The notes below the pieces were generated by a model, which saw only the letters and a list, made by a program, of their open reading frames with translations, was not told the DNA's origin and did not search any database. A program made the position numbers and the translations under genes. From Comamonas sp. (GTDB lineage: Bacteria; Pseudomonadota; Gammaproteobacteria; Burkholderiales; Burkholderiaceae_C): a stretch of 49,790 nucleotides of DNA. Below, piece after piece: positions 1,602-20,180 of the stretch; the stretch's first letter is position 1, and each line of letters opens with the position of its first letter. The stretch is taken from positions 1 to 49,790 of the forward strand of contig JADMKK010000001.1 in the NCBI GenBank assembly GCA_015478895.1. The letters are read 5' to 3'.

Positions 1602-1605
1602 GGTT

Positions 1606-2481: not shown

Positions 2482-2506
2482 GGTGATGTCTCCTAATGTT
2501 GGTGTC

Positions 2507-3673: not shown

Positions 3674-3685
3674 AGCTGACTCCCC

Positions 3686-4432
3686 TTAGTGCGCAATGCT
3701 TTGACCGCCATCGATATAGATGGTCTCGCCGCTGAGGAAGGCACCTGCCGGGCCAAACATGCTCGCCACCAGTGCGCCGACATCCTTGGACTTGCCGGGC
3801 ATGCCGCCGGGAATGCGCTTGGCCAGGTACTGGCGCAGCGGGCTGTCTTCGCCCATGGCATCGGCATTCAGATCGGTTTCGATATAGCCGGGGGCTACGT
3901 TCATCACGCGGATGCCTTTGTTGCCCCACTCGGCAGCCAGACAACGGGTAATCGCACCCACCGCCGCTTTGCTGGCGCAATACGCCACATTGCGTTTGAC
4001 GCCCAGCTTTTCAAAGAAGGAGCCAATGTTGACAATCATCCCGCCCTGGTTTTCCAGCAGGTAGGGGTAGGCAGTTTGGCAAGCGGTGAGCACCGAGGTG
4101 GCATTCATATCCATCATCAGTTGCCACTGATCCAGCGGCAATGTGGCAGACGGTCCATCCACGTGCAGGCCCGCGTTGTTGACCAAGCCTTTGATCTGCC
4201 AGCCATCGTCCTTGAGTTGTTTCAAGGCTTGCGCCATGGTCTCAGGCTGGGACACATCGGCGCGCCCTGCCAGCAGGCGGGCATCCACTTCGGGGCTGAT
4301 GCCTTCGATCTTGGGCACCGTGCCCGAGCGTGAAAGGCAAGCCACGTAGTTGCCTTGTTCAGCCAGTGCCACAGCGATGGAGGCCCCAATGCCTTTGCTC
4401 GCGCCCGTCACCACAATACAAGTTTTGCTCAT
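3686..4432 (-). CDS. Short-chain dehydrogenase/reductase
   Basis: This is a classical SDR of 248 residues. It has the cofactor motif TGASKGIG at residues 9-16, NNAG at 85-88, Ser138 and the catalytic YxxxK pair Tyr151/Lys155. It ends with the usual GAFLSGETIYIDGGQ segment. Such enzymes interconvert hydroxyl and keto groups; in this acyl-CoA locus a 3-hydroxyacyl-CoA or ring-hydroxyl oxidation is likely, but the substrate cannot be read from sequence. GGAGA precedes the ATG at 4432, and the gene is spaced 12 bp from the acyl-CoA dehydrogenase that follows. Confidence 0.93.
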   Translation of the reverse strand: MSKTCIVVTGASKGIGASIAVALAEQGNYVACLSRSGTVPKIEGISPEVDARLLAGRADVSQPETMAQALKQLKDDGWQIKGLVNNAGLHVDGPSATLPLDQWQLMMDMNATSVLTACQTAYPYLLENQGGMIVNIGSFFEKLGVKRNVAYCASKAAVGAITRCLAAEWGNKGIRVMNVAPGYIETDLNADAMGEDSPLRQYLAKRIPGGMPGKSKDVGALVASMFGPAGAFLSGETIYIDGGQSIAH

Positions 4433-4455
4433 TGTGTTGTCTCCCTGTTCTGTGC

Positions 4456-5220
4456 TTATTGGTCTTTGAATGCAGCGGGGCGTTTGTCGACAAACGCCTG
4501 CATGCCCTCTTCCGCATCGGCCGTGCGATAGGCCAGCGTGGACAAATCAGCCTCCAGACGCAGGCCTTCATACATCGACAGATCCGCCGCACGCAGCACA
4601 GCGTCACGGGCAAACTGCAGCGCGCGCAGGCTGTGGGCTGTGAACTCGCGGGCATAGGCCTTGCCAGCCTCCACCGCAGGGCCTTCGACGATGCGGTTCA
4701 CCAGCCCTATCGCGAGTGCTTCTTCGGCCTTGACCACACGACCGGTCATGACCAACTCCAGCGCCCGCCCCGTCCCCACCAGGCGTGGCAGACGCTGGGT
4801 TCCGCCATAACCGGGAATCAGACCCAGCTTCACTTCAGGAAGGCCGAACTTGGCATTGGGCAATGCCAAACGCAATGTGCACGCCAGTGCCAGCTCGCAG
4901 CCGCCACCAAACGCAAAACCATTGACCACAGCAATCGAAGGAATGCTCAAACGATCCAGCTGTGCGAACACGGCCTGGCCCAGCTCCGCGCCTTCGCGCT
5001 GGTCCTTGAGGTTGCGTTGCTGCAACTCTTTGATATCAGCACCGGCGCAAAACGATTTCTCGCCTTCGCCCGTAATAACCAGCGCGCGAGCGTTGGAGCG
5101 GCCCGCTTCAGTGATGGCCTTGCCGATATCTTCAATCAGCGAAAAGCTCAGCGCATTCAGTGCCTGCGGACGACGAATCGTCAGCACCGCAAATTCTTCG
5201 TCGTATTTCAGTTCAATCAT
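4456..5220 (-). CDS. Enoyl-CoA hydratase (crotonase family, both catalytic Glu present)
   Basis: The 254-residue protein has a complete crotonase active site: Glu109 in GGGCELALAC and Glu129 in LPEVKLGLIPGYGGTQ, matching the two Glu residues that add water across 2-enoyl-CoA. The oxyanion-hole segment FCAGADI is at residues 58-64. The start at 5220 is preferred over a more upstream in-frame codon because it overlaps the stop of the acyl-CoA ligase gene as ATGA, a typical sign of translational coupling. It contrasts with the other crotonase of the locus (6935-7717), which lacks both Glu residues. Confidence 0.93.
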   Translation of the reverse strand: MIELKYDEEFAVLTIRRPQALNALSFSLIEDIGKAITEAGRSNARALVITGEGEKSFCAGADIKELQQRNLKDQREGAELGQAVFAQLDRLSIPSIAVVNGFAFGGGCELALACTLRLALPNAKFGLPEVKLGLIPGYGGTQRLPRLVGTGRALELVMTGRVVKAEEALAIGLVNRIVEGPAVEAGKAYAREFTAHSLRALQFARDAVLRAADLSMYEGLRLEADLSTLAYRTADAEEGMQAFVDKRPAAFKDQ

Positions 5221-6899
5221 GCAACCACCTCTGGGGCGCGATAGCGCACAGGCTGGGGTTGAATGCGGCCAGACTTGACCCATTCAATCAGTTCACGTTT
5301 CAGGATTTTTCCGCTGGGGGTTAGCGGAAACTCGGGCAGCACGATGTAGAACTCGGGCATGTCAAATTTGGACAAGCCTTCTTGCGCCAAGTGCTGCAGC
5401 ATGTCCTGTGCTTCAGGTGCGCTGTCTGGCGCAATCAATGCCAGGCACACCTTTTCGCCCAGCCGCTCATCGGGCACACCAAACGCAGCGGCCTTCTTGA
5501 CTGCCGGATGACGGTGGGCGTATTCCTCGATATGGGCGGGATGGATGTTGTGACCACCGCGAATGATCAAATCCTTCTTGCGGCCCACAATTTCCAGATT
5601 GCCCTTCGCATCAAAGCGGCCCAGATCACCACTCATGAACCAGCCACCCGCGTTGAAGGAGCTTTCCGTGGCGGTCTGGTTGTTGAAGTAACCCAGCATC
5701 AGCAAGCCACCGCGACCACCAATTTCGCCCACTTCGCCTTGCGGCACTTCATGGTCAGGGTGCTCTTGGTCAAACAGGCGTACTTCATAGCCGTGGCAGT
5801 GCTTGCCGCAAGTGCTGGTGATGACTTCCACAGCGTCATGGGGCAAGGTGTACTGGTGCGAGCCACATTCGGTCATGCCATACACATTTTGCGGTGTAGC
5901 CCCGAGCGCCAGCAAACGGCCTGCGGTTTCGGTGGGGATGGGCGCTCCAGCCATATAGAACACACGCACTTCGCCCAAACGGGTCAACGCATGCTTGTCC
6001 ACTTCCTGAATCAGATCCATGGCATGCGTAGGCACACCCATGACATAGGTGGCTTTGGTTTGCAATAACCAGTCCAGTGCAGGCACGCCAGCGGTGCCAT
6101 CAAACATCACCAGCTCACAGCCCGTGACCAGCACTTGCTCCAAAGCGACCGTGCCAATGTGGTGGCTCATGGGGCTCAGCGTCAGCAGAACCGTGTCCGT
6201 GTCTTGATTCCAGTCCTTGGACAGCGAACGTCCATTGGCCAGCAAAGTGTTGTCACTGTGCATGACGCCCTTGGGCGCGCCAGTGGTACCACTGGTAAAG
6301 GCCAGATACACCACTTGATCTGGATTAGTACTGGCGGCAGGCAAATCTGCCAGCGATACCTGACCGGGTTGTGGCATGGCCACCGTACCTGCGGGCAAGG
6401 TGTCATTGCAGACATTGAGTGCAGGCAATGCGAACAAACGCTTCACATGCCCCAATGTCTGCGCCTGTGTAAATACGTCCTGCAGCTTGGCATCAGCACC
6501 CCAGCCGGTCTGGGCAAACAGTGCTTTGCAGTCAATGCGCTGCAGCAGCGTCAGGATTTCAGCGACGGTGTAGTTCTGGTGCAACGATGGGTTGCACACA
6601 TAACCGTTGCGTGAGCACGCCAGTTGAATGACCACGTTTTCCAGGCGGTTGGGCAGCCATACGGCGACACGGTCACCGGCGCGCAATCCACTGGCGTGCA
6701 GCGCAGCGGCTACGGCATCCACCCACTGCACCAGTTGCAACCATGTCAGGCGGCGCTGGCTGTCCCGGACTGCAAAGGCATTGCCGCGTTCGCTGGCATG
6801 CTTGCGGGCCAAGCCGTACATGGTGTCGCTTTGCCATACACCCTGCTCGTAGCGTGCCTGAGCAAGTGCAGGGTTATGCAATGTCAGTAGTTGGGACAT
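5217..6899 (-). CDS. AMP-forming acyl-CoA synthetase/ligase
   Basis: The 560-residue enzyme belongs to the ANL adenylate-forming family. It shows the phosphate-binding loop FTSGTTGAPKG, the YGMTE motif, GDLGRFDAKG with the conserved Asp, the hinge GRKKDLIIRGG and the C-terminal catalytic-Lys motif PSGKILKRE. It would activate a free carboxylic acid to its CoA thioester through an acyl-adenylate, and could start the pathway. The ATG at 6899 follows AGGAGG by 6 nt. The presence of a ligase in addition to two CoA-transferases suggests more than one carboxylate is activated during breakdown. Confidence 0.94.
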   Translation of the reverse strand: MSQLLTLHNPALAQARYEQGVWQSDTMYGLARKHASERGNAFAVRDSQRRLTWLQLVQWVDAVAAALHASGLRAGDRVAVWLPNRLENVVIQLACSRNGYVCNPSLHQNYTVAEILTLLQRIDCKALFAQTGWGADAKLQDVFTQAQTLGHVKRLFALPALNVCNDTLPAGTVAMPQPGQVSLADLPAASTNPDQVVYLAFTSGTTGAPKGVMHSDNTLLANGRSLSKDWNQDTDTVLLTLSPMSHHIGTVALEQVLVTGCELVMFDGTAGVPALDWLLQTKATYVMGVPTHAMDLIQEVDKHALTRLGEVRVFYMAGAPIPTETAGRLLALGATPQNVYGMTECGSHQYTLPHDAVEVITSTCGKHCHGYEVRLFDQEHPDHEVPQGEVGEIGGRGGLLMLGYFNNQTATESSFNAGGWFMSGDLGRFDAKGNLEIVGRKKDLIIRGGHNIHPAHIEEYAHRHPAVKKAAAFGVPDERLGEKVCLALIAPDSAPEAQDMLQHLAQEGLSKFDMPEFYIVLPEFPLTPSGKILKRELIEWVKSGRIQPQPVRYRAPEVVA

Positions 6900-6934
6900 C
6901 ACGGACCTCCTCGTTGTCGATCTATGAAAGAGGC

Positions 6935-7717
6935 TTATTGGCCGAACTTGCTGCCATCAGGACTGCGGCGTTCTGCAAAAGAAGCGGCCAGCTCGTGGTG
7001 CTCTTCGGTTTCCAGATAGCCGCGCAGCAACAAGTCATGGGCCATCCGGGACAGGCCTGCAACACCACCGTGGCGGGCATTGAACGCACCCTTGATCGAA
7101 GCCAGCGCAAAGGAGCCACGGTCGGCGATTTCCAGTGCGAACTTCTTGGTGGCTTCTGCCAGTTGGTCATCAGGCACTACGCGGTTGATGAGGCCCCATT
7201 CTTTGGCTTCTGCGGCCGACAGCTTCGGATTGGCATACCACATCTCCTTGGCACGTTTTTTACCCACCAAGTCTTCCAGGTACCAGGTGCCGTAGCCAGC
7301 GTCAAAGCTGCCCATCATGGGGCCGACCTGGCGGAACACCGCGCTTTCCTTGGCAATGGTCACATCGCACACCATCTGCAGCACGTTGCCGCCGCCTACG
7401 GCAAAACCGTTCACGCAGGCAATCACGGGCTTTTGCAGCTTGTCGATGGACTCGTACATCTCCAGTGTGGGCAGCACACCCGCATACAGCAGCGTGTCTT
7501 CCATGCCTTCCTTGCGGCCACCGATACAGAAGAACTTGTCGCCCGCACCTGTCAGCACCACCACACGGGTACGTGTTTCGCGGCGGATTTCGTTGATGCA
7601 GTCGCGGATTTCATGGCACATCTTGGCCGTGAACATATTGCCGTCTTGCGGACGATTCAAAGTGATGGTCGCAATGGGGCCGTCTTCGCTATAGATGATT
7701 TCGTCAAATTGCTGCAT
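6935..7717 (-). CDS. Crotonase-family hydrolase, BadI/MenB-like
   Basis: This 260-residue crotonase departs from hydratases at both catalytic positions: Val112 and Pro133 stand where hydratases have Glu. Instead it has the GPMMGSFDAGYGTWYL segment (Asp139), close to that of MenB (naphthoyl-CoA synthase) and BadI (2-ketocyclohexanecarboxyl-CoA hydrolase), which make or break a C-C bond through an enolate. The oxyanion-hole region reads FFCIGGRKEG. In a catabolic locus, hydrolytic opening of a cyclic beta-keto acyl-CoA is more likely than ring closure, since no other menaquinone gene is near. This functional reading is inference; family membership is well supported. AAGGAG precedes the ATG. Confidence 0.85.
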   Translation of the reverse strand: MQQFDEIIYSEDGPIATITLNRPQDGNMFTAKMCHEIRDCINEIRRETRTRVVVLTGAGDKFFCIGGRKEGMEDTLLYAGVLPTLEMYESIDKLQKPVIACVNGFAVGGGNVLQMVCDVTIAKESAVFRQVGPMMGSFDAGYGTWYLEDLVGKKRAKEMWYANPKLSAAEAKEWGLINRVVPDDQLAEATKKFALEIADRGSFALASIKGAFNARHGGVAGLSRMAHDLLLRGYLETEEHHELAASFAERRSPDGSKFGQ

Positions 7718-7727
7718 GAATGTCTCC

Positions 7728-8972
7728 TTAAATAATGGCTTGTGCGCGAAGCTGGGTCATGGCGGACTCGTCCAGTGCGAGCCAATCTTGTAAAACGGTC
7801 TGGGTGTCTGCGCCCAACTTGGGTGGTGGTACTTGTGTGCCTTCGGTCTGGCCATCAAAGCGGATGCCCAGCCCGACTTGCGGGATGTCACCATCCGGGC
7901 CCTTTGTGCGGTAGATAAAGCCTGCTTGCTGCAGCGCTTTGTCGCGGGCCAGTTCGTCCAGGCGCTGAATAGGGCCTGCCGGTACACGGGCCTTGGTAAA
8001 CATTTCCAGCCATTCAGCGCGTGGCTTGGTCAACAGCACTTTGGCGATCATGTCGACCAGCTCAGGGCGGGCTTGGCGGCGTTGAGCATTGCTGGCGTAA
8101 GCAGGGTTGTGTGCCACCTCAGACTGGCCCACGGTGTCCCAGAAACGCTGCCAGATGGCGTCGTTGCCCAAGCCCAGCGTCATCGGGTCATCGGCCGTTT
8201 CAAACACTTGGTAGATGGCAATTACGCTGTCACGGCCACCCGAGCGGCGGTACATTTCTCCCGAGCCCAGGTGCGGCATCAAACGGGGCGATATGAAACG
8301 CGACATCGACTCGACCATGGAGATATCGATGCTGCAGCCCACGCCATCACGCTGGCGGCGGTACAGCGCAGCGAGCACCGCCATGGCAGCGTCGTGTCCA
8401 GACAGCAAGTCTGCGGCGGGAGTGCCTACCTTTTGCGGGCCGTTTTCCAGCTCACCCGTCAAATCCATCACGCCTGAGTAGCCTTCGGCAATCAGGTCGT
8501 AGCAAGGCATGTCGGCGCGATCGCCCTGCAAACCGAAACCTGTGAGTGACAGATGAATCAGCTGGGGATTAATGGCCCGCAGCGTCGCGGCATCCACGCC
8601 CAGCTTGCGCTGACCGCGGGCCACCAGATTCAGCAAAATGACATCGCACTGGGCCACCAGTTGCTCCAGCACGGCCTTGCCTTCAGGCTTGCTGAAATCC
8701 AGCGTCATGCTCTGCTTGCCACGGTTCACGGCCATGAACCACAGCGACTCACCATGCAGGAAGGGAGGCCCCCAGGCCCGCGCATCGTCCCCACCTTTGG
8801 GCTTTTCCACTTTGAGTACGGTAGCGCCCATGTCTGCCAGCAACTGACCGGCATAGGGACCAGCGATCGACGTGGTCAGGTCCAGCACTTTTACCCCCGT
8901 CAAAAAATTCAGGCTGGGTGCGTTGCGCAGGGGTAAATCGTTCAGCGGGGATTCCAATGGGATCTGTGACAT
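7728..8972 (-). CDS. Family III CoA-transferase (CaiB/BaiF), catalytic Asp present
   Basis: The 414-residue protein shows the CaiB/BaiF pattern: SIAGPYAGQLLADMGATVLKVE near the N-terminus, NRGKQSMTLD, then CYDLIAEGYSG, where Asp159 aligns with the Asp that forms the acyl-anhydride intermediate in formyl-CoA transferase. It would move CoA between carboxylic acids in the cytoplasm. A paralogue at 13056-14303 in the same run lacks this Asp. Some aromatic and succinate-type CoA-transferases are built of two such subunits, so a heteromer is possible. Start 8972 has only a moderate ribosome-binding site. Confidence 0.92.
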   Translation of the reverse strand: MSQIPLESPLNDLPLRNAPSLNFLTGVKVLDLTTSIAGPYAGQLLADMGATVLKVEKPKGGDDARAWGPPFLHGESLWFMAVNRGKQSMTLDFSKPEGKAVLEQLVAQCDVILLNLVARGQRKLGVDAATLRAINPQLIHLSLTGFGLQGDRADMPCYDLIAEGYSGVMDLTGELENGPQKVGTPAADLLSGHDAAMAVLAALYRRQRDGVGCSIDISMVESMSRFISPRLMPHLGSGEMYRRSGGRDSVIAIYQVFETADDPMTLGLGNDAIWQRFWDTVGQSEVAHNPAYASNAQRRQARPELVDMIAKVLLTKPRAEWLEMFTKARVPAGPIQRLDELARDKALQQAGFIYRTKGPDGDIPQVGLGIRFDGQTEGTQVPPPKLGADTQTVLQDWLALDESAMTQLRAQAII

Positions 8973-9126: not shown

Positions 9127-9597
9127 TTAGGCTTGTGGGCGGCACTTGTAGAGGTACTTGGATTCCATTTGCTGCACAATTTCGCCGCGCTGGTTGATGA
9201 CCGAGCGCTCAAACTTCACCACGCCGCGGTCGCCCTTGGAGGACAGCTTGCTCTCCAGCACTTTGGAGACCATGTGAATGGTGTCGCCGTGGAACACGGG
9301 GTTCAGCATGCGCCAGTTGTCCACCTGCAGCAGCGCAATCAGCGTGCCGTCATTCACACCGCTGGCGTACTGCAGGCCAGCAGCCACTGCGTAGATCAGC
9401 GGGCCGTGGGCAATGGGCTGGCCAAACGAGGTGGTCTTGAGGTACTCGTGGTTGGTGTGTACTTCATTGAAGTCACCCGACAGGCAGGCAAAGTTCACGA
9501 TGTCAGTGTTGGTGATCGTGCGTGCGGGGGTCTGAATCTCTTCACCGATGGTGAAGTCTTCGAAGTAACGGCCACGTGGAGTTGCTGCTTTGCTCAT
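9127..9597 (-). CDS. MaoC-like (R)-hydratase, catalytic Asp/His intact
   Basis: This single hot-dog-domain protein of 156 residues has the hydratase-2 motif: Asp42 and His47 in GDFNEVH, followed by PIAHGPL. Such proteins hydrate trans-2-enoyl-CoA. It is separated by about 79 bp, holding a hairpin, from the thiolase-like gene upstream in the transcript. A second MaoC-fold protein (11312-11785) lacks both catalytic residues. By comparison with the mycobacterial ChsH1/ChsH2 hydratase, where two MaoC domains form a heteromer, the two may work together; this is inference. Confidence 0.92.
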   Translation of the reverse strand: MSKAATPRGRYFEDFTIGEEIQTPARTITNTDIVNFACLSGDFNEVHTNHEYLKTTSFGQPIAHGPLIYAVAAGLQYASGVNDGTLIALLQVDNWRMLNPVFHGDTIHMVSKVLESKLSSKGDRGVVKFERSVINQRGEIVQQMESKYLYKCRPQA

Positions 9598-9637
9598 GGT
9601 GTCTGCCTCTGTATCTGTCTTGTTGTTTACTTAGCTA

Positions 9638-9667
9638 CGCTGGCTGTGGCGCTTGCTACAGCCAGCG
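9638..9667 (-). other. Intercistronic hairpin (10-bp stem)
   Basis: A perfect inverted repeat (cgctggctgt 9638-9647, acagccagcg 9658-9667, 10-nt loop) lies between the thiolase-like gene and the downstream MaoC gene. No U-run follows on the minus strand, so it is not a standard terminator. It may stabilise or process the message so that subunits are made in different amounts. Confidence 0.5.
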
Positions 9668-9676
9668 ACTTGGTGG

Positions 9677-10855
9677 TTAGCCTTTGTCGTTGGCCAGAAT
9701 CACGGTGCAATGCGAAGACAAGATGCCGCCTTCGTTGTGCACCAAGGCCACTTCTGCGCCGTTGACCTGGCGCTCGCCCAATCCACCGCGCAGCTGGCGC
9801 ACAGCTTCGACGATGCCAAACAGGCCGCCCGCCGCACCGGCATGGGCATGGCTCAACATGCCACCGTGGGTGTTGATGGGCAGATCACCACCCACGCGGC
9901 CACGGCCTTCGGCAAAGAAAGCGCCACCTTCACCGGGTTTGACAAAACCCAGCTCCTCCAGCTCGATGATCGGCACGATGGAGAAGCAGTCGTACAGCTG
10001 TGCTACGTCGATGTCTTTGGGGCCAAGGCCTGCCATCTCGTAAGCCACACGGCCCGACTCCGTTGCACCAAACTCGGTCAAGCTGGGCGCGCACATCAGG
10101 TGCTCGTGGGTGTGAAACTCGCCGATGCCCTGCAGGTACACGGGCTTGCACTTCAAGTCCTTGGCGCGCTCTGCCGAGGTCACGATGAAAGCGCCGCCCG
10201 CGTCCGACAGCAAGCAGCAGTCCAGCATGCCCAGCGGGTCAGCAATCGGTTTGGCCGACAGCACATCCTCCATGGTGATGGGCTTTTTCATGTGGGCGTT
10301 CGGGTGCAGCAAAGCATTGGCACGGGTGTTCACCGCAACGCTCGCCATTTGCTCCCGCGTGGTGCCGTACTTGTGCATGTGGCGCTGCGCGATCATGGCG
10401 TAGTAGCCCGGGATGGAGCCCCCATAAGGCTGCTCGTAGTACGGGTGGCCCACAGCCAGCAGCGTGGACACTGCGGCATCGCGGGACTGGCCTGTCGCAC
10501 GATTTTCACCTGCGCACACCAGGATCACTTCAGCCTGACCCGAGGCAATTGCTTCGGCTGCGTGCTTGAGCATGATGGCGGGCGAACCACCACCGACGAC
10601 CATCGATGCGTTATAGCGCGGCTGGATGCCCAGGTACTCACACATCACTGAGCCCAGCATGAAGTACGGCTCTGTGAACGAATATGCAGTGAGCAAACCG
10701 TCGATGTCTGAGACTTTGAGGCCAGCATCGTCGAGCGCACGTTTGCATGCTTGGGCATTCAGGCCCAGACCCGTCATGTGCGGCACGCGGCCAATTTCTG
10801 ACTCACCCACGCCAACGATGGCGATCTTGTTCTTGAGAGATGTAGGTTGTTTCAT
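9677..10855 (-). CDS. Thiolase-like lipid-transfer/aldolase protein lacking the nucleophilic Cys
   Basis: The 392-residue protein has the thiolase fold typical of SCP2-thiolase/Ltp proteins: IAIVGVGESEIGR at the N-terminus, LYDCFSIVPIIELEELGF at 287-304, and NTHGGMLSHAHAGAAGG near the C-terminus (His336/His338). Where true thiolases have the CASG nucleophile, this protein reads VVGGGS (86-91) with no Cys, so classical thiolysis is unlikely. The mycobacterial Ltp2 enzyme, which works with a DUF35 partner, is a retro-aldolase with the same kind of replacement. The adjacent DUF35 gene ends 9 bp before this start. I infer an acyl-CoA lyase; a non-catalytic carrier role cannot be excluded. GAGGAGG precedes the ATG. 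Confidence 0.88.
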   Translation of the reverse strand: MKQPTSLKNKIAIVGVGESEIGRVPHMTGLGLNAQACKRALDDAGLKVSDIDGLLTAYSFTEPYFMLGSVMCEYLGIQPRYNASMVVGGGSPAIMLKHAAEAIASGQAEVILVCAGENRATGQSRDAAVSTLLAVGHPYYEQPYGGSIPGYYAMIAQRHMHKYGTTREQMASVAVNTRANALLHPNAHMKKPITMEDVLSAKPIADPLGMLDCCLLSDAGGAFIVTSAERAKDLKCKPVYLQGIGEFHTHEHLMCAPSLTEFGATESGRVAYEMAGLGPKDIDVAQLYDCFSIVPIIELEELGFVKPGEGGAFFAEGRGRVGGDLPINTHGGMLSHAHAGAAGGLFGIVEAVRQLRGGLGERQVNGAEVALVHNEGGILSSHCTVILANDKG

Positions 10856-10864
10856 AAAGCCTCC

Positions 10865-11275
10865 TCAGACCTCAACACGTTGGAACTGAGGCAGCTGGTC
10901 ACCGTCGCCACGGTCTTCAAAGACCAGCGTCAGCGCATCACCAATTTTTGTCTTTAGCGCGTTCTCGCCCAGAACGTTGGCCATCATGCGGGGGCCTTCT
11001 TGCAAGTCCACCAGCACCACCACGTATGGCACCAGGTGCGCAAAGCGTGGATCCGACGCACGGCGAATGATGGTGTAGCTGTGCACGGTGCCTTTACCGC
11101 TGGCCTCGATCCACTGCAGGTCGTCAGACCAGCAAGTCGGGCATACATGGCGCGGCATAAAGTGCACTTGGCCGCAAGCATTGCATTTGCGAATGAGCAA
11201 CTTGTTCTCGCGGGCGCCCTGCCAGTAAGGCTGAGAGTCTGCGTTGGATATGGGTTTAGGAAGCGTGCTGTCCAC
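10865..11275 (-). CDS. DUF35 zinc-ribbon/OB-fold acyl-CoA-binding protein
   Basis: The 136-residue protein has a zinc ribbon made of Cys31, Cys34, Cys45 and Cys48 followed by an OB-fold (KGTVHSYTIIRR, then YVVVLVDLQEGPRMMANV). DUF35 proteins pair with thiolase-like enzymes, for example ChsH2 with Ltp2 in steroid side-chain breakdown and BbsA with BbsB in benzylsuccinate oxidation. Here the gene lies between a MaoC gene and the thiolase-like gene, which supports such a complex. Translation probably begins at a GTG at 11275, since AGGAG lies 5 nt upstream and no suitable ATG is present. Confidence 0.9.
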   Translation of the reverse strand: MDSTLPKPISNADSQPYWQGARENKLLIRKCNACGQVHFMPRHVCPTCWSDDLQWIEASGKGTVHSYTIIRRASDPRFAHLVPYVVVLVDLQEGPRMMANVLGENALKTKIGDALTLVFEDRGDGDQLPQFQRVEV

Positions 11276-11311
11276 GTGATCTCCTGATTTGTTGTTCTTG
11301 GTTTTCTGGGC

Positions 11312-11785
11312 TTAGGCGGCAGTCGCTGGCGCTTCTACATAAGCTTGGGTACGGATCATTCGGGTCGACAGGTAGCTGATCACCACCTCGCCCTTTTGAT
11401 TGACCACTTCGTGCGCGGTGACCACCACGCCGCGATCGGGCTTGCTGGTGGCTTTCTTGGAATGCATGCGCACACGGTTCTTCAAGGTATCGCCTGCAAA
11501 CACAGGCTTCAAAAATTTGGGCGACAGCTCCATCAGGAAAATGCCGCGTTTGCGCGTCAAACCTTCGCTCATGACCAGGCCTTCAGCAATGCACAGGCCA
11601 AACAAGCCAGGAGCCATGCGCGCACCGTAATCCGCAGAGTTCTTCACATAGTTCATGTCCGTGAAAGTTGGTGTATGAAACTTATGCAAATCAACGAATT
11701 TCGCAATGTCCTCATCGGTCACCACGGTCGATTGCGTTTCATATGACCAGTCTTCGGAATAGTCTTCAAAGTACGGTGCGCTCAT
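11312..11785 (-). CDS. MaoC-fold protein with degenerate active site
   Basis: This 157-residue hot-dog protein aligns over its whole length with the MaoC hydratase at 9127-9597, but the Asp and His of the hydratase motif are replaced by Phe36 and Phe41 (HKFHTPTF in place of SGDFNEVH), and the AHG that follows becomes APG. It should therefore not hydrate by itself. The position next to DUF35 recalls ChsH2, in which a MaoC domain and a DUF35 domain are fused; here they are separate genes. AGGAG precedes the ATG. A role as structural or substrate-binding half of a heteromeric hydratase is inference. Confidence 0.85.
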   Translation of the reverse strand: MSAPYFEDYSEDWSYETQSTVVTDEDIAKFVDLHKFHTPTFTDMNYVKNSADYGARMAPGLFGLCIAEGLVMSEGLTRKRGIFLMELSPKFLKPVFAGDTLKNRVRMHSKKATSKPDRGVVVTAHEVVNQKGEVVISYLSTRMIRTQAYVEAPATAA

Positions 11786-11810
11786 GGCTATCTCCTGCTT
11801 AGATGGTGAA

Positions 11811-13016
11811 TTAGTAAGAACGTGGCAGGCCCAGCACGTGCTGGCTGACGTAGTTCAAAACCATGTTGGGAGAAACAGGCGCGATCTGGAACACGCGGGT
11901 GTCGCGGAAACGGCGCTCAATGTGGTATTCCTTGGCCAGACCGAAGCCCCCGTGTGTCTGCATACAGACGTTGGCCAGTTCCCACGATGCGTCAGACGCC
12001 AGCATCTTGGCAATGTTGGCTTCGCCGCCGCAGTGTTCATTGCGGTCAAACTTCTCGGCAGCCTTCCAGCGCAATGCGTCTGCGGCTTCCAGGTGGGCAT
12101 AACCCAATGCAATAGGGAACTGCACACCTTGGTTGGCACCGATAGGCTTGCCAAACAGCACACGCTCCTTGGCGTAATTGACTGCCTTTTCCACAAACCA
12201 GCGGCCGTCACCAATGGCTTCGGAAGCGATGATGATGCGCTCGGCATTCAGACCGTCCAGCAGGTACTTGAAGCCCTTGCCCTCTTCGCCGATCAGCGAA
12301 GTTTCTGGTACACGCATGTGGTCGTAGAAGACTTCATAGGTGTGGTGGTTGAACATCACGTCGATCTTGCGGCTGGAATACTGCTTGGGATCAACATTGC
12401 GCTTGTCCACCAGAAATGCCGAGATACCTTGGTAAGCCTTGGCAGGATCCTTAGGGGGGCTAGTACGTGCGAACACCATGAATGCGTCGGTGTAGTCAAA
12501 GCGCGAAGTCCACAGCTTCTGGCCTGTAATCACCCACTCATTGCCTTCTTTGACGGCCTTGGTCTGCAGCTTGGAAGTGTCGGTACCGGCATTGGGTTCG
12601 GTCAGCGAGAAAGACTGCAGACGTACCTTGCCTGCGCACACTTCTTCCAGAATCTTGCGTTTTTGCTCGTCGGTGCCGTGGCGCGCCAAGATACCCATCA
12701 TGAACATCTGGCCGTGGATCATGGAGCCCACGCCACCGGAGCGGTGCATTTCTTCCACGATCGTGCAAGCGTGCTCCAGACCCAGACCCATGCCGCCGTA
12801 TTCCTCAGGAATCATTACGGTGTGCAGCTTGGCGTCCATCAATGCTTTGACGTAGTCGTGCGGGAAGGCTTCTTCCTTGTCCAGCTTGGCAAAGTACTCA
12901 TCACCGAAACGGCTGGTCACGGCCTGCGTGGCCTGCAGCACGTCTGCACGGGTGATGCCGGAGGGATGTGCGCCACTTTGAATGGATGCGGGACGCTCTA
13001 AGGTTGCTGTGCTCAT
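11811..13016 (-). CDS. Acyl-CoA dehydrogenase with helix-G catalytic Glu
   Basis: The 401-residue protein is an acyl-CoA dehydrogenase (SLTEPNAGTDTSKL; THGGFGLAKEYHIERRFRD), but at the usual catalytic position it has Pro380 (QIAPVSP instead of QIYEGTS). A Glu is present at 259 in GLNAERIIIA, which matches the alternative position used by isovaleryl-CoA and long-chain acyl-CoA dehydrogenases. This points to a branched or bulky acyl-CoA substrate, which is inference. It is transcribed just ahead of the MaoC/DUF35/thiolase-like group. The ribosome-binding site before 13016 is weak. Confidence 0.92.
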   Translation of the reverse strand: MSTATLERPASIQSGAHPSGITRADVLQATQAVTSRFGDEYFAKLDKEEAFPHDYVKALMDAKLHTVMIPEEYGGMGLGLEHACTIVEEMHRSGGVGSMIHGQMFMMGILARHGTDEQKRKILEEVCAGKVRLQSFSLTEPNAGTDTSKLQTKAVKEGNEWVITGQKLWTSRFDYTDAFMVFARTSPPKDPAKAYQGISAFLVDKRNVDPKQYSSRKIDVMFNHHTYEVFYDHMRVPETSLIGEEGKGFKYLLDGLNAERIIIASEAIGDGRWFVEKAVNYAKERVLFGKPIGANQGVQFPIALGYAHLEAADALRWKAAEKFDRNEHCGGEANIAKMLASDASWELANVCMQTHGGFGLAKEYHIERRFRDTRVFQIAPVSPNMVLNYVSQHVLGLPRSY

Positions 13017-13055: not shown

Positions 13056-14303
13056 TCAAGCGACTGAAGCCAGCGCCTGTGTTTTGCCGAATGCGCCCTC
13101 TTCTTCCAGGCGCTCAATGTCTTGGGCCGACAAATTCAGTGCTTTGCGCAAGACCGCATCACGGTGTTCGCCCAGCAAAGGCACCAGATCGCTGCCGGGG
13201 GCCGGGTCAAAACGTGTGGCATCGACGGGCAGCTGCATGGTTCCGCCGATACCGTCACGCACCGTGCGGAAAGAACCGCGCAGCTGCATGTAGTCGTGCT
13301 CGGTCAGCTCATTCATGTTCAGAATGCTGGCCACCGGCACATCCACAGCGTTGAGCTTGGCCACGATCTCTTCGCGGGTGAACTGGCGTGTGAACTCTTC
13401 CGTCAAGGTGTGCACTTCGTGCTGGCGCTTGGCGCGCTCGACATACTTGGCGTAGCGCGCATCGGTGCCCAGCTCGGGGCGCTGCATGGCATCGCACAGG
13501 CGGGCCCAGAAGTCATCGCGGTTCACGCCGATGTTCACAAAGCCGTCGGAGGCTGGGAAAGCGCCGTAAGGCACACCGTGAAAATTGTTGGAGCCGGCAA
13601 AGGCGCGCAATTCAGCGCTGGCCGACTGCTCACGGGCCAAGGCCACGCTCACCATCGGCAGCGAGCACTCGACCATGCTCAAGTCCAGCACGCGGCCAAT
13701 TCCGTGCTGCTCTTGGTTGCGCAGTGCCAGCAAGATGGCCGAATGCGCAGTCATGCCTGCCAGGATGTCGCCCATCGCAAAGCCACACCACACGGGGTTG
13801 CCGTCGTGGTCCCGGGTCAGGCTGGTGGTGCCCGACATGGCTTCTGCCACCATGGCCAGACCGGCCACTTCGGTGTATTTGCCCGCATTTTGCAAACCAA
13901 AGCCGGAGATGCACGCCACGATCAGGCGGGGGTAGCGCTTGACCAGATCCTCGGGGTACAGGCCCAGACGCTTCAAGGCACCACCGCGCATATTGGTCAG
14001 CAGCACATCGGCGCCTTCCAGCAACTGGTGCAGCGTTTGCAAACCTTTTTCGTTTTTCAAGTTCAGCGTGATGCTTTGCTTGCCGCGATTGAGCGCGCCG
14101 AAATAGCCCGAGATTTCTTTGCCATCTTGCTGCCGCATGGGCTCGCGGTGACGCGTCAGCTCGCCTTCTGGAGGCTCAACCTTGACGACGGTGGCGCCCT
14201 CTTCTGCCAGCAACTGACCGCAGTAAGGGCCTGCGATCAGGTGGGACAGCTCAATGACCTTGACACCTTGCAGCGGCGATGGAGTGGTACTGGAAGCAGA
14301 CAT
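13056..14303 (-). CDS. Family III CoA-transferase (CaiB/BaiF), catalytic Asp replaced by Ala
   Basis: The 415-residue protein has a clear CaiB/BaiF core (LIAGPYCGQLLAEEGATVVKVE; LNRGKQSITLNL; later VLDLSMVECS). When aligned by the shared SG dipeptide with the paralogue at 7728-8972, the position of the catalytic Asp159 is Ala150 (GLAMVAEAMSG). It is therefore either a non-catalytic partner subunit, or an enzyme of different chemistry. It is the first gene of the 15-gene run and is followed after 39 bp by the acyl-CoA dehydrogenase gene. The start at 14303 lacks a strong Shine-Dalgarno sequence. Confidence 0.88.
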   Translation of the reverse strand: MSASSTTPSPLQGVKVIELSHLIAGPYCGQLLAEEGATVVKVEPPEGELTRHREPMRQQDGKEISGYFGALNRGKQSITLNLKNEKGLQTLHQLLEGADVLLTNMRGGALKRLGLYPEDLVKRYPRLIVACISGFGLQNAGKYTEVAGLAMVAEAMSGTTSLTRDHDGNPVWCGFAMGDILAGMTAHSAILLALRNQEQHGIGRVLDLSMVECSLPMVSVALAREQSASAELRAFAGSNNFHGVPYGAFPASDGFVNIGVNRDDFWARLCDAMQRPELGTDARYAKYVERAKRQHEVHTLTEEFTRQFTREEIVAKLNAVDVPVASILNMNELTEHDYMQLRGSFRTVRDGIGGTMQLPVDATRFDPAPGSDLVPLLGEHRDAVLRKALNLSAQDIERLEEEGAFGKTQALASVA

Positions 14304-14766: not shown

Positions 14767-16134
14767 TTATGCAGCAGCGCCTTTCGTTGCGACCAACACA
14801 TCCACCAACTCGCGGCTCGAAGCCAGCGCATCGACCTGCCACAGTGTCTGCAGCACATGGCGCGCTCGGGGCTCGTCTCCCCAAGGCGCAAACAAGTCCA
14901 TGAACTTGACTTCCAGTTCTGCGTCCGTCATCGGGTCGTGCGCATGCCCCCGAGGGTTGGGTTGCAGGTAGCGATGCACTTGACCTTGCGCATCCGTCAC
15001 ACTGATGCGTGTCTGCGCCTGGGCCGGAAAGGCCTGTGTCATGGCCGGCGAGGCCACCACGGCAATGCGATCCATCAAGGCTTTGGTATCGGCTCGCACC
15101 AGCTGCTCAGTGCTGTAGGCGGAGGATGCGAGCTTGCCATCCAGCCACGCGGTCGCCACCGCATACGGCAAGCTGTGGTCTGCCGTCTCCCGGTTGCTAG
15201 GTTGCCAGCGCTGGGCATCACTGCCCATGGCCTGGTAGGCCGCTTCATACGTTTCAATCTGGATGGATTGCACCGCTGAAGCTGCCACTTGCTCGCGCAA
15301 GGCCAGGGCTGCATCCACGGCAGACTGGCCGTGGTAGCACACAGGGTGGCGCTTCAAATGGGTACTCGCGATCAAAGGCATGCCTTGCCCGACACGCCAT
15401 TCAAAAGCGCCCAGGATGGTCTGCAAACCCCCGCGCCCTTGCACCACTGCGCTGGGGCCCGTCATGCCGGCTTGCGCCATCAGCGCTGCAAACACGCCGT
15501 TGCGCGCACCGTTGGGGCCACCACAGCCTTTCCAGTCTGAAAGCTCTCCGCAGCGCACGTTGTACAAGTGCACATTGGCAACCAAGCACAGTGACAGTGC
15601 ATGCGCTGTCTGCGCGGCATCCAGCCCCAGCAGACGCGCAGCACCGGCTGCTGTGCCCACTGCCGCCGCAGTGCCTTGGTCCACGCCCTTGGCGGCCATG
15701 GCCACTGCATCGCACAGGCCAACATACACCTCATACGCTGCAACAACTGCCGTGATCAGCGTACTGCCTGCGCTGTCTGTAGCCTCCGCCACAGCCACCA
15801 GGCCGCCGAGCATGTCACTGGGGTGGCCATTGCTGCGCGCGAGCACCGTGTCGCTCAAATCCAGGTAACGCAGCAAGGTGCCATTGGTAAACGCAGCCAT
15901 TTCCACCGAAGTAGTCTGGCCGCTCCCCCACAGGCGCGCCGACAGCGGGCCTGCATAGCGCGCAGCCATGGCCTGCATCTGCTGACAAAATGGCTCGGCG
16001 GCAGCGGCGGCCGCACACGCCACGCTGTCAATGATGCGCCGCCGCGCCTCATGCACGGCCTGAGGTGGTAGCTGCGCAAACTGCAGCCCCTGCACATAGT
16101 CTGCAAGGGCAAGCACGCTCTGGTCGCTGCTCAT
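14767..16134 (-). CDS. MmgE/PrpD family protein (2-methylcitrate dehydratase-like subgroup)
   Basis: The 455-residue protein belongs to the MmgE/PrpD fold, which includes 2-methylcitrate dehydratase and cis-aconitate decarboxylase. The segment RYLDLSDTVLARSNGHPSDMLG is close to the PrpD dehydratase subgroup. The true start is taken as the ATG at 16134, which overlaps the stop of the upstream paralogue as ATGA, rather than a codon 52 residues earlier that would add a low-complexity, non-homologous leader. The substrate is unknown; hydroxylated di- or tricarboxylic acids are typical of the family. No methylcitrate synthase or lyase gene is nearby. Confidence 0.9.
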   Translation of the reverse strand: MSSDQSVLALADYVQGLQFAQLPPQAVHEARRRIIDSVACAAAAAAEPFCQQMQAMAARYAGPLSARLWGSGQTTSVEMAAFTNGTLLRYLDLSDTVLARSNGHPSDMLGGLVAVAEATDSAGSTLITAVVAAYEVYVGLCDAVAMAAKGVDQGTAAAVGTAAGAARLLGLDAAQTAHALSLCLVANVHLYNVRCGELSDWKGCGGPNGARNGVFAALMAQAGMTGPSAVVQGRGGLQTILGAFEWRVGQGMPLIASTHLKRHPVCYHGQSAVDAALALREQVAASAVQSIQIETYEAAYQAMGSDAQRWQPSNRETADHSLPYAVATAWLDGKLASSAYSTEQLVRADTKALMDRIAVVASPAMTQAFPAQAQTRISVTDAQGQVHRYLQPNPRGHAHDPMTDAELEVKFMDLFAPWGDEPRARHVLQTLWQVDALASSRELVDVLVATKGAAA

Positions 16135-17513
16135 GCCAGCACGCGCAACACTTCTGTGGCGTCCGTCAGTTGCTCCAGGTTGCGGATCATGTCGTGCGCC
16201 TTGGCCAGTTGCTCGGCAGAGGGCTTGTTGGCGGCCAGTGCTGCACTTTCCATGAATTTTTCGTTCAGGTATTCCCAGGTCATGGGGCATTCCACATCGC
16301 CAGGCACGTTTTCCCCTACACGCGACAAGGTGCGACCATCGTGGGTCACGATGTCCAGGCGACCCTTGGGCAGCATGCCATTCCAGTTAAAGCCTTCATC
16401 GACCACCGCCACAATCTTGTCGGCAGTGGCAATCACCTCAGGGTCTTGCAACGCAGTGCCAAAGAAGTCTGAAAGTTTGACACTGCCCTTGGTAGCGGCC
16501 ACGGCAACGCAGTAAGGAATGCTGAACTTGGCATCCGCAGGAGTTGCTGGGCGGCGGCGGCCTTCAATCGGTTCGCACAACTGCTTTTGAAAATCGCCCA
16601 CATTCACACGAATTTGCGCAATGTCTTTCACTGACAGCTGGTGCTCACGCATCAGCTCCAGCGTGGCATGGATAAAGCCATGCGATGCACCACACGAAGG
16701 CCAAGGCTTGTACAGAATGTCGCCGCCCGCAAAGCTGCGACCCAGGTCTTTGAGCATGCTCTCGCGGTTGTACTCACCGTCAAAGTACACATTGAATAAA
16801 CCAGCCTTGCCTTCGAACATGCTTTGCACACCGCGAATGTTCTTTTGCGCCATCAACGCACCCAGCACGGCACCCTTGGTCGAAAACCCTGCATACATGC
16901 CGCGCAAATCGCTGCCCACACCGTAAGCCAGCTCCAACGTACCGCAGCACTGCATGCCAGCAATACCAAGTGCGCTAATGGTTTGTTCACGGTTTAAGCC
17001 CAAGATATGCGCCGATGCAGCAGCGGCAGAAAACACACCCACCACGGTGGTGATGTGCCAGTCCAGCCGGCTGGCCACACCACGGCGTATGCGCATAAAC
17101 ATGTCCTGCCCCGCAGCCACTGCGGCAATCATTTGCTTGCCAGAGACACCCCCTGCGCGCTCGGCCAGCGCAAATACCGCAGGCACGATGGAACTGCTGG
17201 GGTGGTGCCCTTCTGGAGCGTGATCGTCAAAGTCCAAACAATGGGCCATGGCTCCATTGTGAAACGCAGCCCATAACGCAGGTGCTTTGCCACCAAAACC
17301 CAAGAGGGAGCTTTCTGGAGTGCCGCCGGCCTCAGTGACCAAGGCATTGACGCCTTGTACTGCAGGCTCCACACCAGTCGCAGCCAATATCACACCCAAG
17401 GTATCCAAAATACTTTTCTTGGCACCTTCAATGGCAGACTCAGGTAAATCCTCATAGCGGGTATTCACTACAAATTCGGCGAAATCGTGAGAAAGCTCTT
17501 GGTTTTGCGACAC
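16131..17513 (-). CDS. MmgE/PrpD family protein
   Basis: This 460-residue member has the typical N-terminal pattern (FVVNTRYEDLPESAIEGAKK, then ILDTLGVILAATG) and the AHCLDFDDHAPEGHHPSSS active-site region with conserved Asp and His residues. It is translated from a GTG at 17513, with GGAGA 7 nt upstream. It is coupled to the next MmgE/PrpD gene by a 4-bp overlap and runs divergently from a third family member at 17746. The three are quite different from each other, so they are not a recent triplication. The reaction is presumably dehydration or decarboxylation of a polycarboxylic acid, by family analogy only. Confidence 0.9.
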   Translation of the reverse strand: MSQNQELSHDFAEFVVNTRYEDLPESAIEGAKKSILDTLGVILAATGVEPAVQGVNALVTEAGGTPESSLLGFGGKAPALWAAFHNGAMAHCLDFDDHAPEGHHPSSSIVPAVFALAERAGGVSGKQMIAAVAAGQDMFMRIRRGVASRLDWHITTVVGVFSAAAASAHILGLNREQTISALGIAGMQCCGTLELAYGVGSDLRGMYAGFSTKGAVLGALMAQKNIRGVQSMFEGKAGLFNVYFDGEYNRESMLKDLGRSFAGGDILYKPWPSCGASHGFIHATLELMREHQLSVKDIAQIRVNVGDFQKQLCEPIEGRRRPATPADAKFSIPYCVAVAATKGSVKLSDFFGTALQDPEVIATADKIVAVVDEGFNWNGMLPKGRLDIVTHDGRTLSRVGENVPGDVECPMTWEYLNEKFMESAALAANKPSAEQLAKAHDMIRNLEQLTDATEVLRVLA

Positions 17514-17745
17514 GTTCTTGTCTCCATTTTTATGAATGAAGTTTTAAGTCTGCCTAACGTAGTTTTAGCCGTCTCTACATATATACCGTCCAACAAGTAA
17601 ATAAAAATTACCTCTTCATCCGCGATGTTTGGGGAAACCCTTCTTTAGCAAAACTGACGCTAGGAGCAATATAAGCAACTGGACTTACAACCATTGCATG
17701 CACAGACTTCAGCAGAACTTAACAACCAAGATGAAAAGGCCTGCT
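17514..17745. promoter_or_regulatory. Divergent promoter region between two MmgE/PrpD genes
   Basis: This 232-bp gap separates divergent genes and must contain promoters for both directions. It is AT-rich (for example tacatatataccg near 17577-17589). The LysR regulator encoded at 20181 is the obvious candidate to bind here, but I could not identify a clear T-N11-A palindrome. Confidence 0.45.
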
Positions 17746-19104
17746 ATGGATCTCGCGCATCACCTTGCAGCTAACGCTGTCAGTCGCCAATACCAGCAAC
17801 TTTCCACTGCCACCATTGACGCCACCGTTGACGGGTTGATCGACAGCCTGGCTTGCGCGCTAGCGGGGGCGCACTCCCACGGTTTGCAGGAAGCACGCCA
17901 AGCGCTGGGGCGCTGGGGCAACACAGGTAGCACCGTGTGGGGTGGTTTTGGTCAGGCACCTGCGCCTTTTGCAGCGTTCTTGAATGCGGTGTCCATGCAT
18001 GCGCTGGACTATGACGACACCGATGACAAAGTGCCATTGCATGCCAATGGATTGGTCCTGCCCGGACTGATGGCCACCATGGAGCAAGACAGCCCCGACA
18101 CCGATGGCCGCGAGTTTCTGACGGCCATCGCGGTGGGTGTAGATGGCGCCATGCGCATTGGCCGTGCAGGGGGACCCAAAGGTTCACGCGGCTGGAATTA
18201 CAGCGTGATTAGTGGATCGGTCGGCGCAGTGCTGGCCATTGCACGCCAGCGCCGCTGGGATACCGCAATGACGGTGAACGCACTGGGACACCAACTCACG
18301 CAGACGGCTGGCAGCTTGCAATCGATCATCGACGGCAGCATGGCCAAACGCTTTCAGCCTGCTCAAATGGTCAAAAACGTGGTGTTTGCCACGGCTTTGG
18401 CAGAGGCTGGCATTGATGGCCCCCGCAATGTGTTTGAAGGTAAGGCTGGTTTTATCAACCTTTATCAAGACGGCAAATTTGATCTGGAAAACGTGCTCAA
18501 GGGCATGGAAACCTGCGTGCTGGTGGAAGACCTGAGCCTCAAGCCCTACCCCGCTTGCCGCTTTACCCACGCACCCATTGATCTGGCTTTAGAGCTGCAC
18601 GCACGCGGCCTGCGCCTTGCCGACATGCGCCAGTTGAATATCAAAGTCAGCGGCCAGGCGGTGAACATGGTGGGGCGCAAATACGACCCACAGACCGCAG
18701 GCATTGTCGATGCGCAATTCAGCATTGCTTACACAGCCGCTGTAGGGATTGAGCGCGGCGCCGTGCTGATCGCTGACTTTACGGACAGTGCCATTCGCGA
18801 TGCGCAGATTGGCAAGTTTGCACGCGACCAAATCCTCATTGAAGCTGATGAAACGCTGCCATTCCTAGGCATGACACCCGTGTTCTTTGAAGCCGAACTG
18901 CACAACGGTGAGCGCATTTCTCTGTCTACCCACGTCGTCTCGGGTGCTCCAGAAAAACGTCTCAGTGCCGAGCAACTGCGTGCCAAGGTGATCGATTGCC
19001 TGAAATACGGCCAATCGCGTGTTGATGCCGACGAGCTGATCCAAGCTGTCCATGCGCTGAAACAAGGCGCGCCTGTTTCCAAGCTGCTGGCCTTGCTCGC
19101 GTAA
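17746..19104 (+). CDS. MmgE/PrpD family protein
   Basis: This third MmgE/PrpD protein has 452 residues counted from the ATG at 17746, chosen because AAAAGG lies 6 nt upstream and the MDLAHHLA start matches the family; an ATG at 17731 is also possible, while longer forms would extend into the promoter region. The ALDYDDTDDKVPLHANGLVLPG segment corresponds to the active-site Asp/His region. It is followed after 46 bp by a Bug receptor gene, suggesting that it handles the compound bound or sensed by that receptor. Substrate unknown. Confidence 0.88.
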   Translation: MDLAHHLAANAVSRQYQQLSTATIDATVDGLIDSLACALAGAHSHGLQEARQALGRWGNTGSTVWGGFGQAPAPFAAFLNAVSMHALDYDDTDDKVPLHANGLVLPGLMATMEQDSPDTDGREFLTAIAVGVDGAMRIGRAGGPKGSRGWNYSVISGSVGAVLAIARQRRWDTAMTVNALGHQLTQTAGSLQSIIDGSMAKRFQPAQMVKNVVFATALAEAGIDGPRNVFEGKAGFINLYQDGKFDLENVLKGMETCVLVEDLSLKPYPACRFTHAPIDLALELHARGLRLADMRQLNIKVSGQAVNMVGRKYDPQTAGIVDAQFSIAYTAAVGIERGAVLIADFTDSAIRDAQIGKFARDQILIEADETLPFLGMTPVFFEAELHNGERISLSTHVVSGAPEKRLSAEQLRAKVIDCLKYGQSRVDADELIQAVHALKQGAPVSKLLALLA

Positions 19105-19150
19105 GCACATCGATTTCACATATCTGCAAAAAATTCAGGAGACAAAAAAT

Positions 19151-20110: not shown

Positions 20111-20180
20111 TGCCGACCAATGGCGCTGTGCCGTTCTTTTCTAGGCTTAACCGGCCCCAAAACCAGAGGAAGGTTCTCCT

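Follow-up and report, generated by a model that had tools for sequence, protein, structure and literature searches.

Introduction

The igr operon of Mycobacterium (ChsE1E2-ChsH1H2-Ltp2) and the ORF40-44 set of Comamonas testosteroni TA441, a betaproteobacterium, each bring together a dehydrogenase, active and inert MaoC parts, DUF35 and a thiolase fold that lacks the nucleophilic Cys. Here, we analyse five adjacent genes for the same kinds of protein in Comamonas sp. (assembly GCA_015478895.1), near the start of contig JADMKK010000001.1 and within a stretch of 49,790 nucleotides that we call the window; the genome is of 3.2 Mb and is given as 99.99% complete. An earlier note on this DNA had taken them for an igr-like set in a betaproteobacterium. 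The set is present, but an igr-like one, for bile acids, had already been reported from C. testosteroni TA441 (PMC12502768).

BbsAB, the benzoylsuccinyl-CoA thiolase, likewise has a thiolase fold and a DUF35-type partner (BbsB was matched at 140 bits and BbsA at 36 bits in our PDB search), and is a thiolase by name. Its pathway includes CaiB transferases and a dehydrogenase. The CtSal-CtShyDUF35 complex (9MYR), a bile-acid retro-aldolase from C. testosteroni, shares with our module the thiolase fold, the DUF35 partner, Gly at the nucleophile position and a Tyr-Asp-Cys sequence. In Sal the motif is YDCY, the changes Y302F, C304A and C304S are reported to abolish activity, and the proposed mechanism uses Tyr302 and Cys304 (PMC12329534). 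IpfDE, from ibuprofen catabolism in Rhizorhabdus wittichii MPO218, is a thiolase-like pair with a retro-aldol step outside steroids on a ring dihydrodiol-CoA, and can be likened to the module by description only (PMC9195938). With IpfDE as a possible exception, the DUF35-partnered thiolase-fold retro-aldolases found in the literature serve steroid side chains, and we found no report of a non-steroid DUF35 aldolase module in openly licensed literature, IpfDE being the nearest.

Results

THL has a Sal-like Tyr-Cys pair and Gly at the nucleophile position

The five genes stand in a row, as the earlier note had described, and all are minus-strand open reading frames (ORFs) with the expected Pfam families:

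11811 to 13016, minus strand: ACAD1, acyl-CoA dehydrogenase (Pfam Acyl-CoA_dh)
11312 to 11785, minus strand: MaoC1, hot-dog protein without catalytic Asp/His (Pfam MaoC_dehydratas)
10865 to 11275, minus strand: DUF35 protein, CxxC...CxxC zinc ribbon and OB fold (Pfam zf-ChsH2 and OB_ChsH2_C)
9677 to 10855, minus strand: THL, thiolase-fold protein with Gly89, Tyr288-Asp-Cys290-Phe and His338 (Pfam Thiolase_C_1)
9127 to 9597, minus strand: MaoC2, catalytic hydratase subunit resembling ChsH1, with motif GDFNEVH (Pfam MaoC_dehydratas)

A retro-aldol module is the best reading of these genes, and the residues of THL appear to support it well. Aligned to the nucleophilic Cys of 6esq and 7yvy is Gly89, present in 80 of 81 aligned rows with a gap in the remaining one; locus L049, which has a stop within its THL stretch, was excluded from this comparison and from the alignments. 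The features of SCP2/CT thiolases are absent from THL, with Gly89 for the nucleophilic Cys (ACASG) and Tyr288 for the His of HDCF. The label 'Cys-less' in the earlier note is hence right for the nucleophile position but not for the protein, which holds nine Cys elsewhere. The motif YDCF was found in the query and in all of its best 120 listed near relatives (121 of 121), and in 78 of the 81 wider rows, the others being L068 and L069, which give no letters there, and a paralogue in the same genome with YDAF. The active site of THL combines the Tyr-Cys pair of Sal with a thiolase-like His, and the presence of Gly89 and YDCF, akin to Sal and TbSLP, agrees with the retro-aldol chemistry envisaged earlier. 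THL is therefore, as judged from its residues, likely to be a retro-aldolase.

THL is nonetheless distinct from the described enzymes. It is 34.8% identical to CtSal over 382 positions, and Gln347 and Gln352 of CtSal correspond to its Met333 and His338, while TcLtp2 has YDHF and Tyr344 where THL has YDCF and His338. The closest solved sequence, the 'putative thiolase' 4u4e of Sphaerobacter thermophilus (49.1% identity over 375 positions), shares Gly at the nucleophile position and His338 but has YDSF instead of YDCF. Loci were fetched for the best 80 of 219 THL relatives and read from tblastn rows, given that ORF lists contain opposite-strand artefacts; many of the contigs are short, so that absences are lower bounds. 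A tree of 23 of these 80 loci, two copies from the genome itself and five PDB chains parted THL from the Cys-thiolases 7yvy and 6esq and put it on the Sal/Ltp2 side (100/100, with a warning from the tool about long branches). Sal grouped with 4u4e and the own-genome paralogue (81/81), on a long branch, and the THL clade was separate. At least 7362 matches to THL were obtained among the 8000 candidates scored, not all of them in the THL clade, and the 120 listed relatives are called thiolase or acetyl-CoA acetyltransferase wherever a functional name is given.

The paralogue belongs to a second DUF35-THL pair of the same genome, on contig C24 (L096:7076-13145) near type II secretion genes. The pair is followed by two acyl-CoA dehydrogenase genes and an acetate-CoA-ligase-like protein; one of the two dehydrogenases is like the large subunit of pimeloyl-CoA dehydrogenase (236 of 624 bits).

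A likely DUF35 partner, one probably inert and one catalytic MaoC

The DUF35 gene ends 9 bases before THL, and its product has four Cys as two CxxC pairs. The closest matches of known structure are the DUF35 subunits found in complexes of Sal, Ltp2 and thiolases, and the protein is likely the partner of THL. CtShyDUF35 is reported as C3H1, in contrast to the two CxxC pairs here, where DUF35 has its own gene and non-steroid neighbours. None of the ORFs that were called in fetched loci fuses DUF35 with THL; the long one in L070 has no in-frame DUF35 match.

The catalytic Asp and His of GDFNxxH are present in 74 of 74 MaoC2 rows, whereas pairwise alignment to MaoC2 places Phe or Tyr at the positions of both residues in each of 121 MaoC1 rows. 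MaoC1 is thus likely an inert partner resembling the MaoC domain of ChsH2, which is also described as lacking the dyad, with Tyr for His (PMC11321319). The pair of one inert and one catalytic MaoC is, by residues only, as in ChsH2/ChsH1, and MaoC1 and DUF35 being separate ORFs is consistent with the earlier suggestion of a ChsH2 split into two genes. For TA441, the DUF35 domain is reported to be required for aldolase activity and to function when expressed apart from the MaoC domain, and both parts of ChsH2 still to work when expressed separately, so a split ChsH2 would be workable (PMC12502768).

In ACAD1 the usual Glu of QIYEGT is replaced by Pro (QIAP in 7 of 7 orthologues), and Glu259, in LNAERIIIA, is conserved in 7 of 7. 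In isovaleryl- and long-chain dehydrogenases the base is a Glu at the matching position, and Glu259 likely plays this part in ACAD1.

The likeness to igr stands for the part families and for the inert/catalytic MaoC pair, but not for the rest. While igr has two dehydrogenase subunits (FadE28/FadE29, ChsE1E2), the module has ACAD1 only, ACAD2 belonging to another block; MaoC and DUF35, fused in ChsH2, are two ORFs; the active-site set differs; and no steroid genes were seen. The module is not a member of the igr or Sal systems: it may work like igr, yet the igr label is best dropped.

DUF35-THL-MaoC2 is the commoner unit and is tied to a ring-opening-like block

The grouping of the five genes exceeds chance: 5 of the 80 loci (L001, L002 and L005 from Cupriavidus, L009 from Burkholderiaceae and L011 from Caballeronia) repeat ACAD1-MaoC1-DUF35-THL-MaoC2 with order and strand unchanged, and L008 has all five genes rearranged. 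DUF35 (at least 40% identity) and MaoC2 (at least 50%) each lie within the stretch fetched around THL in 68 of the 80 loci, in some cases apart from it or on the other strand, and ACAD1 and MaoC1 in 6. The smaller set DUF35-THL-MaoC2 is by far the commoner unit. MaoC1 has fewer relatives than THL (142 matches among 158 candidates), and in genome G497 it lies near CaiB2, ACAD1 and another MaoC2-like gene, some 30 kb from DUF35-THL-MaoC2. This suggests two separable units, one for hydration and one for cleavage, that are joined in the window. CaiB2 is near MaoC1 in relatives too (L101, L008, L011).

The module adjoins a block at 918-8972 that is its most important neighbour and that the earlier note missed. 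Fifteen genes are co-directional from CaiB2 (14303) to an electron-transfer flavoprotein (ETF) gene (67) at the contig end, in the order CaiB2, ACAD1, MaoC1, DUF35, THL, MaoC2, CaiB1, ECH1, LIG, ECH2, SDR, ACAD2, 3HCDH, 3HCDHb, ETF beta. From CaiB2 to MaoC2, the successive spacers are 39, 25, 36, 9 and 79 bases, with 154 bases between MaoC2 and CaiB1. Upstream of CaiB2 come two MmgE/PrpD genes. The genes around the module are:

13056 to 14303, minus strand: CaiB2, class III CoA-transferase
7728 to 8972, minus strand: CaiB1, class III CoA-transferase (best NCBIfam model, succinate-glutarate CoA-transferase)
6935 to 7717, minus strand: ECH1, MenB/BadI-like hydrolase or cyclase with GSFDAGYG motif; proposed ring opening
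5217 to 6902, minus strand: LIG, AMP-forming acyl-CoA ligase
4456 to 5283, minus strand: ECH2, enoyl-CoA hydratase
3686 to 4432, minus strand: SDR, proposed beta-hydroxyacyl-CoA dehydrogenase
2507 to 3673, minus strand: ACAD2, acyl-CoA dehydrogenase with the usual Glu (QIWEG)
1606 to 2481, minus strand: 3HCDH, N-terminal half of a PaaH-like 3-hydroxyacyl-CoA dehydrogenase
918 to 1634, minus strand: 3HCDHb, C-terminal 3HCDH domain protein, overlapping 3HCDH
67 to 831, minus strand: ETF domain protein of beta type, at the contig end
14767 to 16290, minus strand: MmgE/PrpD-family protein, a neighbour kept in Cupriavidus loci
16131 to 17513, minus strand: MmgE/PrpD-family protein, a neighbour kept in Cupriavidus loci

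A ligase, dehydrogenase, hydratase and SDR with a BadI-type hydrolase make up the role set of cyclohexanecarboxylate ring opening (bad/ali), and all five roles occur here in one cluster, assigned by broad family only. The block thus resembles cyclohexanecarboxylate ring opening, and shares the clustering of these roles around a BadI/MenB-type hydrolase with the bad/ali and mrc pathways, but its NCBIfam scores are below cut-off: the model for cyclohexanecarboxylate ligase gave 259.3 of 792.3 bits and that for cyclohexanecarboxyl-CoA dehydrogenase 162.5 of 575.35 bits, while ECH1 reached 239 bits with the MenB model (cut-off 380) and 217.6 with BadI (cut-off 467.6). We rejected ECH1 as a true BadI, no match in its own genome being over the BadI cut-off. 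Its GSFDAGYG motif is also found in solved MenB enzymes, and no menaquinone genes besides the MenB-like ECH1 were present among the window genes scanned. CaiB1 scored 283 of 750 bits with its best model and has 9br7 among its PDB relatives. A similar ring-opening role set is described for the mrc limonene cluster (PMC4109377), and a 4-methylcyclohexanecarboxylate pathway has been predicted from a Cupriavidus genome (PMC4547698).

An ECH1 orthologue (at least 65%) lies in the fetched stretch of 13 of the 80 THL loci, from Variovorax, Burkholderia, Caballeronia, Verticiella, Noviherbaspirillum, Rhodovulum, a Magnetovibrio and a Cellvibrionales bin. Among 329 genomes of the family, with thresholds of E <= 1e-150 for THL and E <= 1e-90 for ECH1, THL occurs in 6, ECH1 in 5 and both in 4, from four genera, with 2-8 kb between them. 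A hypergeometric test gives 1.6e-7, and 6.8e-6 when the window's genome is excluded, with no correction for relatedness. In the three of these four genomes other than the window's own (L099, L100 and L102), a single co-directional row reads CaiB1-ECH1-LIG-ECH2-SDR-ACAD2-3HCDH-3HCDHb-ETFbeta-ETFalpha-DUF35-THL-MaoC2; L102 and L006 are one and the same DNA, with 11 of 12 probes identical, and the family sample is hence not fully independent of the 80 loci. ETF beta, then ETF alpha, precede DUF35-THL-MaoC2 in these relatives, ETF alpha being confirmed by Pfam in L006, L104 and L105, with no NCBIfam match at 1e-50. In 250 genomes of the order, THL was found in 5, ECH1 in 12 and both in 4, but one genus (g10) supplies 4 of the 5 THL genomes, and we rely on the family sample instead. 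Several genomes argue against a strict link between THL and the block: the block occurs without THL in G267, THL occurs without ECH1 in G292 and G510 when the family thresholds are applied, and 8 of the 12 ECH1 genomes in the order sample lack THL.

In G292 and G510 (L104 and L105), THL is instead beside a thiamine diphosphate (ThDP) enzyme, a dehydrogenase, an aldehyde dehydrogenase and both ETF subunits. The best model for the L104 dehydrogenase is glutaryl-CoA dehydrogenase (330 of 470 bits, below cut-off), and 13 of the 80 loci have a dehydrogenase at least 65% like it close to THL. The ThDP enzyme, acetolactate-synthase-like (below cut-off), is upstream of DUF35-THL in L047, L104 and L105, and could be a lyase whose reaction precedes or follows the aldol step. 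A link of L047 (Variovorax WS11, plasmid 2) to isoprene was dropped, since the iso cluster is reported to be on megaplasmid 1 and we found nothing in that paper that ties it to this locus (PMC9804861).

Other features of the window

3HCDH and 3HCDHb overlap by 29 bases (918-2481) and correspond to the two parts of a 3-hydroxyacyl-CoA dehydrogenase of PaaH type. A single ORF of 502 amino acids was called at this place in L061, so the protein may exist in both split and fused form. Adjoining the module, at 14767-21113, are three MmgE/PrpD genes, a TctC receptor and a LysR regulator, and MmgE genes recur beside ACAD1 in Cupriavidus. Ten genes scanned at 21-38 kb encode two TctC proteins, a porin, RNase E/G, RsfS, coproporphyrinogen oxidase, a purD-type protein, HerA helicase, enoyl-CoA hydratase and Kdo transferase. 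The named nearest relatives of window proteins are mostly Burkholderiales.

Discussion

From the genes, their motifs, conservation and linkage, and the predicted fold, we infer reactions, complexes and substrates as follows. ACAD1 would form an alpha,beta-unsaturated acyl-CoA, and a MaoC1-MaoC2 heteromer, with MaoC1 inert and MaoC2 catalytic, would hydrate its beta carbon. THL-DUF35 would then split the beta-hydroxyacyl-CoA by retro-aldol cleavage into acetyl- or propionyl-CoA and a ketone or aldehyde, with Tyr288 deprotonating the beta-hydroxyl and Cys290, perhaps with His338, protonating the enolate, as proposed for Tyr302 and Cys304 of Sal. Along with the neighbouring ligase, ACAD2, ECH2, SDR, MenB/BadI-like hydrolase, CoA-transferase and ETF, the unit would serve to catabolize a substituted alicyclic or branched dicarboxylic acid. 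We hold this scheme as a whole, a retro-aldol unit in alicyclic or branched acid catabolism, to be reasonably probable. Our guess for the substrate is a tertiary beta-hydroxyacyl-CoA from a branched alicyclic acid, which the 'different beta-branched acid' of the earlier note fits. There is weak evidence for a glutaryl-type dicarboxylic CoA ester, given the succinate-glutarate CoA-transferase match of CaiB1 and the glutaryl-CoA-dehydrogenase-like match in L104; against it, the best match of the window's own ACAD1 is not glutaryl-CoA dehydrogenase.

THL-DUF35 could instead be an ordinary side-chain retro-aldolase that converts a secondary beta-hydroxyacyl-CoA to an aldehyde and acetyl- or propionyl-CoA, as a general bypass around those steps of beta-oxidation that form a ketone, with the ring block a mere frequent neighbour. 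Sal is reported to release an aldehyde (PMC12329534), and an aldehyde dehydrogenase, which would suit an aldehyde-releasing step in our favoured scheme as well, is in the THL row of L104 and L105, along with an acetate-CoA-ligase-like protein in L104 (all below cut-off). Yet aldehyde dehydrogenases of at least 35% were detected in only 2 of the 80 loci (L047, 82%; L061, 36%) and in none of the window genes scanned, and the ring-opening link is strong, making this alternative unlikely. Less probable still is that THL-DUF35 makes or breaks another C-C bond, for instance by decarboxylating a malonyl-type CoA, by hydrolysis or by transferring an acyl group, without retro-aldol chemistry: the hydratase genes beside THL suit an aldol step better, and Sal, with the same Gly and Tyr-Asp-Cys, is reported to have given no acetyl-CoA from malonyl-CoA (PMC12329534).

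That the module is a steroid or bile-acid side-chain system (igr or Sal/Shy) in disguise would account for the identical protein families, and such a set handles bile acids in C. testosteroni (PMC12502768). THL, however, appears to lie outside Sal and Ltp2 in the tree, the neighbours are MenB/BadI-like, CaiB and MmgE/PrpD proteins, and the best match to HsaA in the genome was 33.2 bits against a cut-off of 450, for this one marker and with no positive control, as 14 of 14 control genomes were also below. The non-steroid setting proposed earlier agrees with that single marker, and we consider a steroid role very improbable.

Within the scheme that we favour, a more specific and rather doubtful version is that THL-DUF35 does the job of 3-hydroxy-3-methylglutaryl (HMG)-CoA lyase on a thiolase fold in a 4-alkylcyclohexanecarboxylate route, as a third class of thiolase-fold acyl-CoA retro-aldolases. 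This version builds on the weak pointers to a glutaryl-type ester given above. The BadI-like block would open a 4-alkylcyclohexanecarboxylate, a naphthenic or monoterpene acid, to a beta-alkylated pimeloyl-CoA; beta-oxidation would lead to 3-alkylglutaryl-CoA; and ACAD1, MaoC1-MaoC2 and THL-DUF35 would yield acetyl-CoA and a 3-oxo acid, with the SUGCT-like CaiB moving CoA. If so, the class would be spread across proteobacteria, outside steroid breakdown.

What is new is DUF35-THL-MaoC2 as the commoner unit and its tie to the ring-opening-like block. Its interest lies in a separate, widespread THL clade linked to ring-opening-like genes, whose chemistry may reach beyond steroids. If THL is a retro-aldolase, many thiolase or acetyl-CoA acetyltransferase annotations would be wrong; and if the proposed scheme is true, THL would be a candidate enzyme for passing beta-branches in naphthenic and terpenoid acids.

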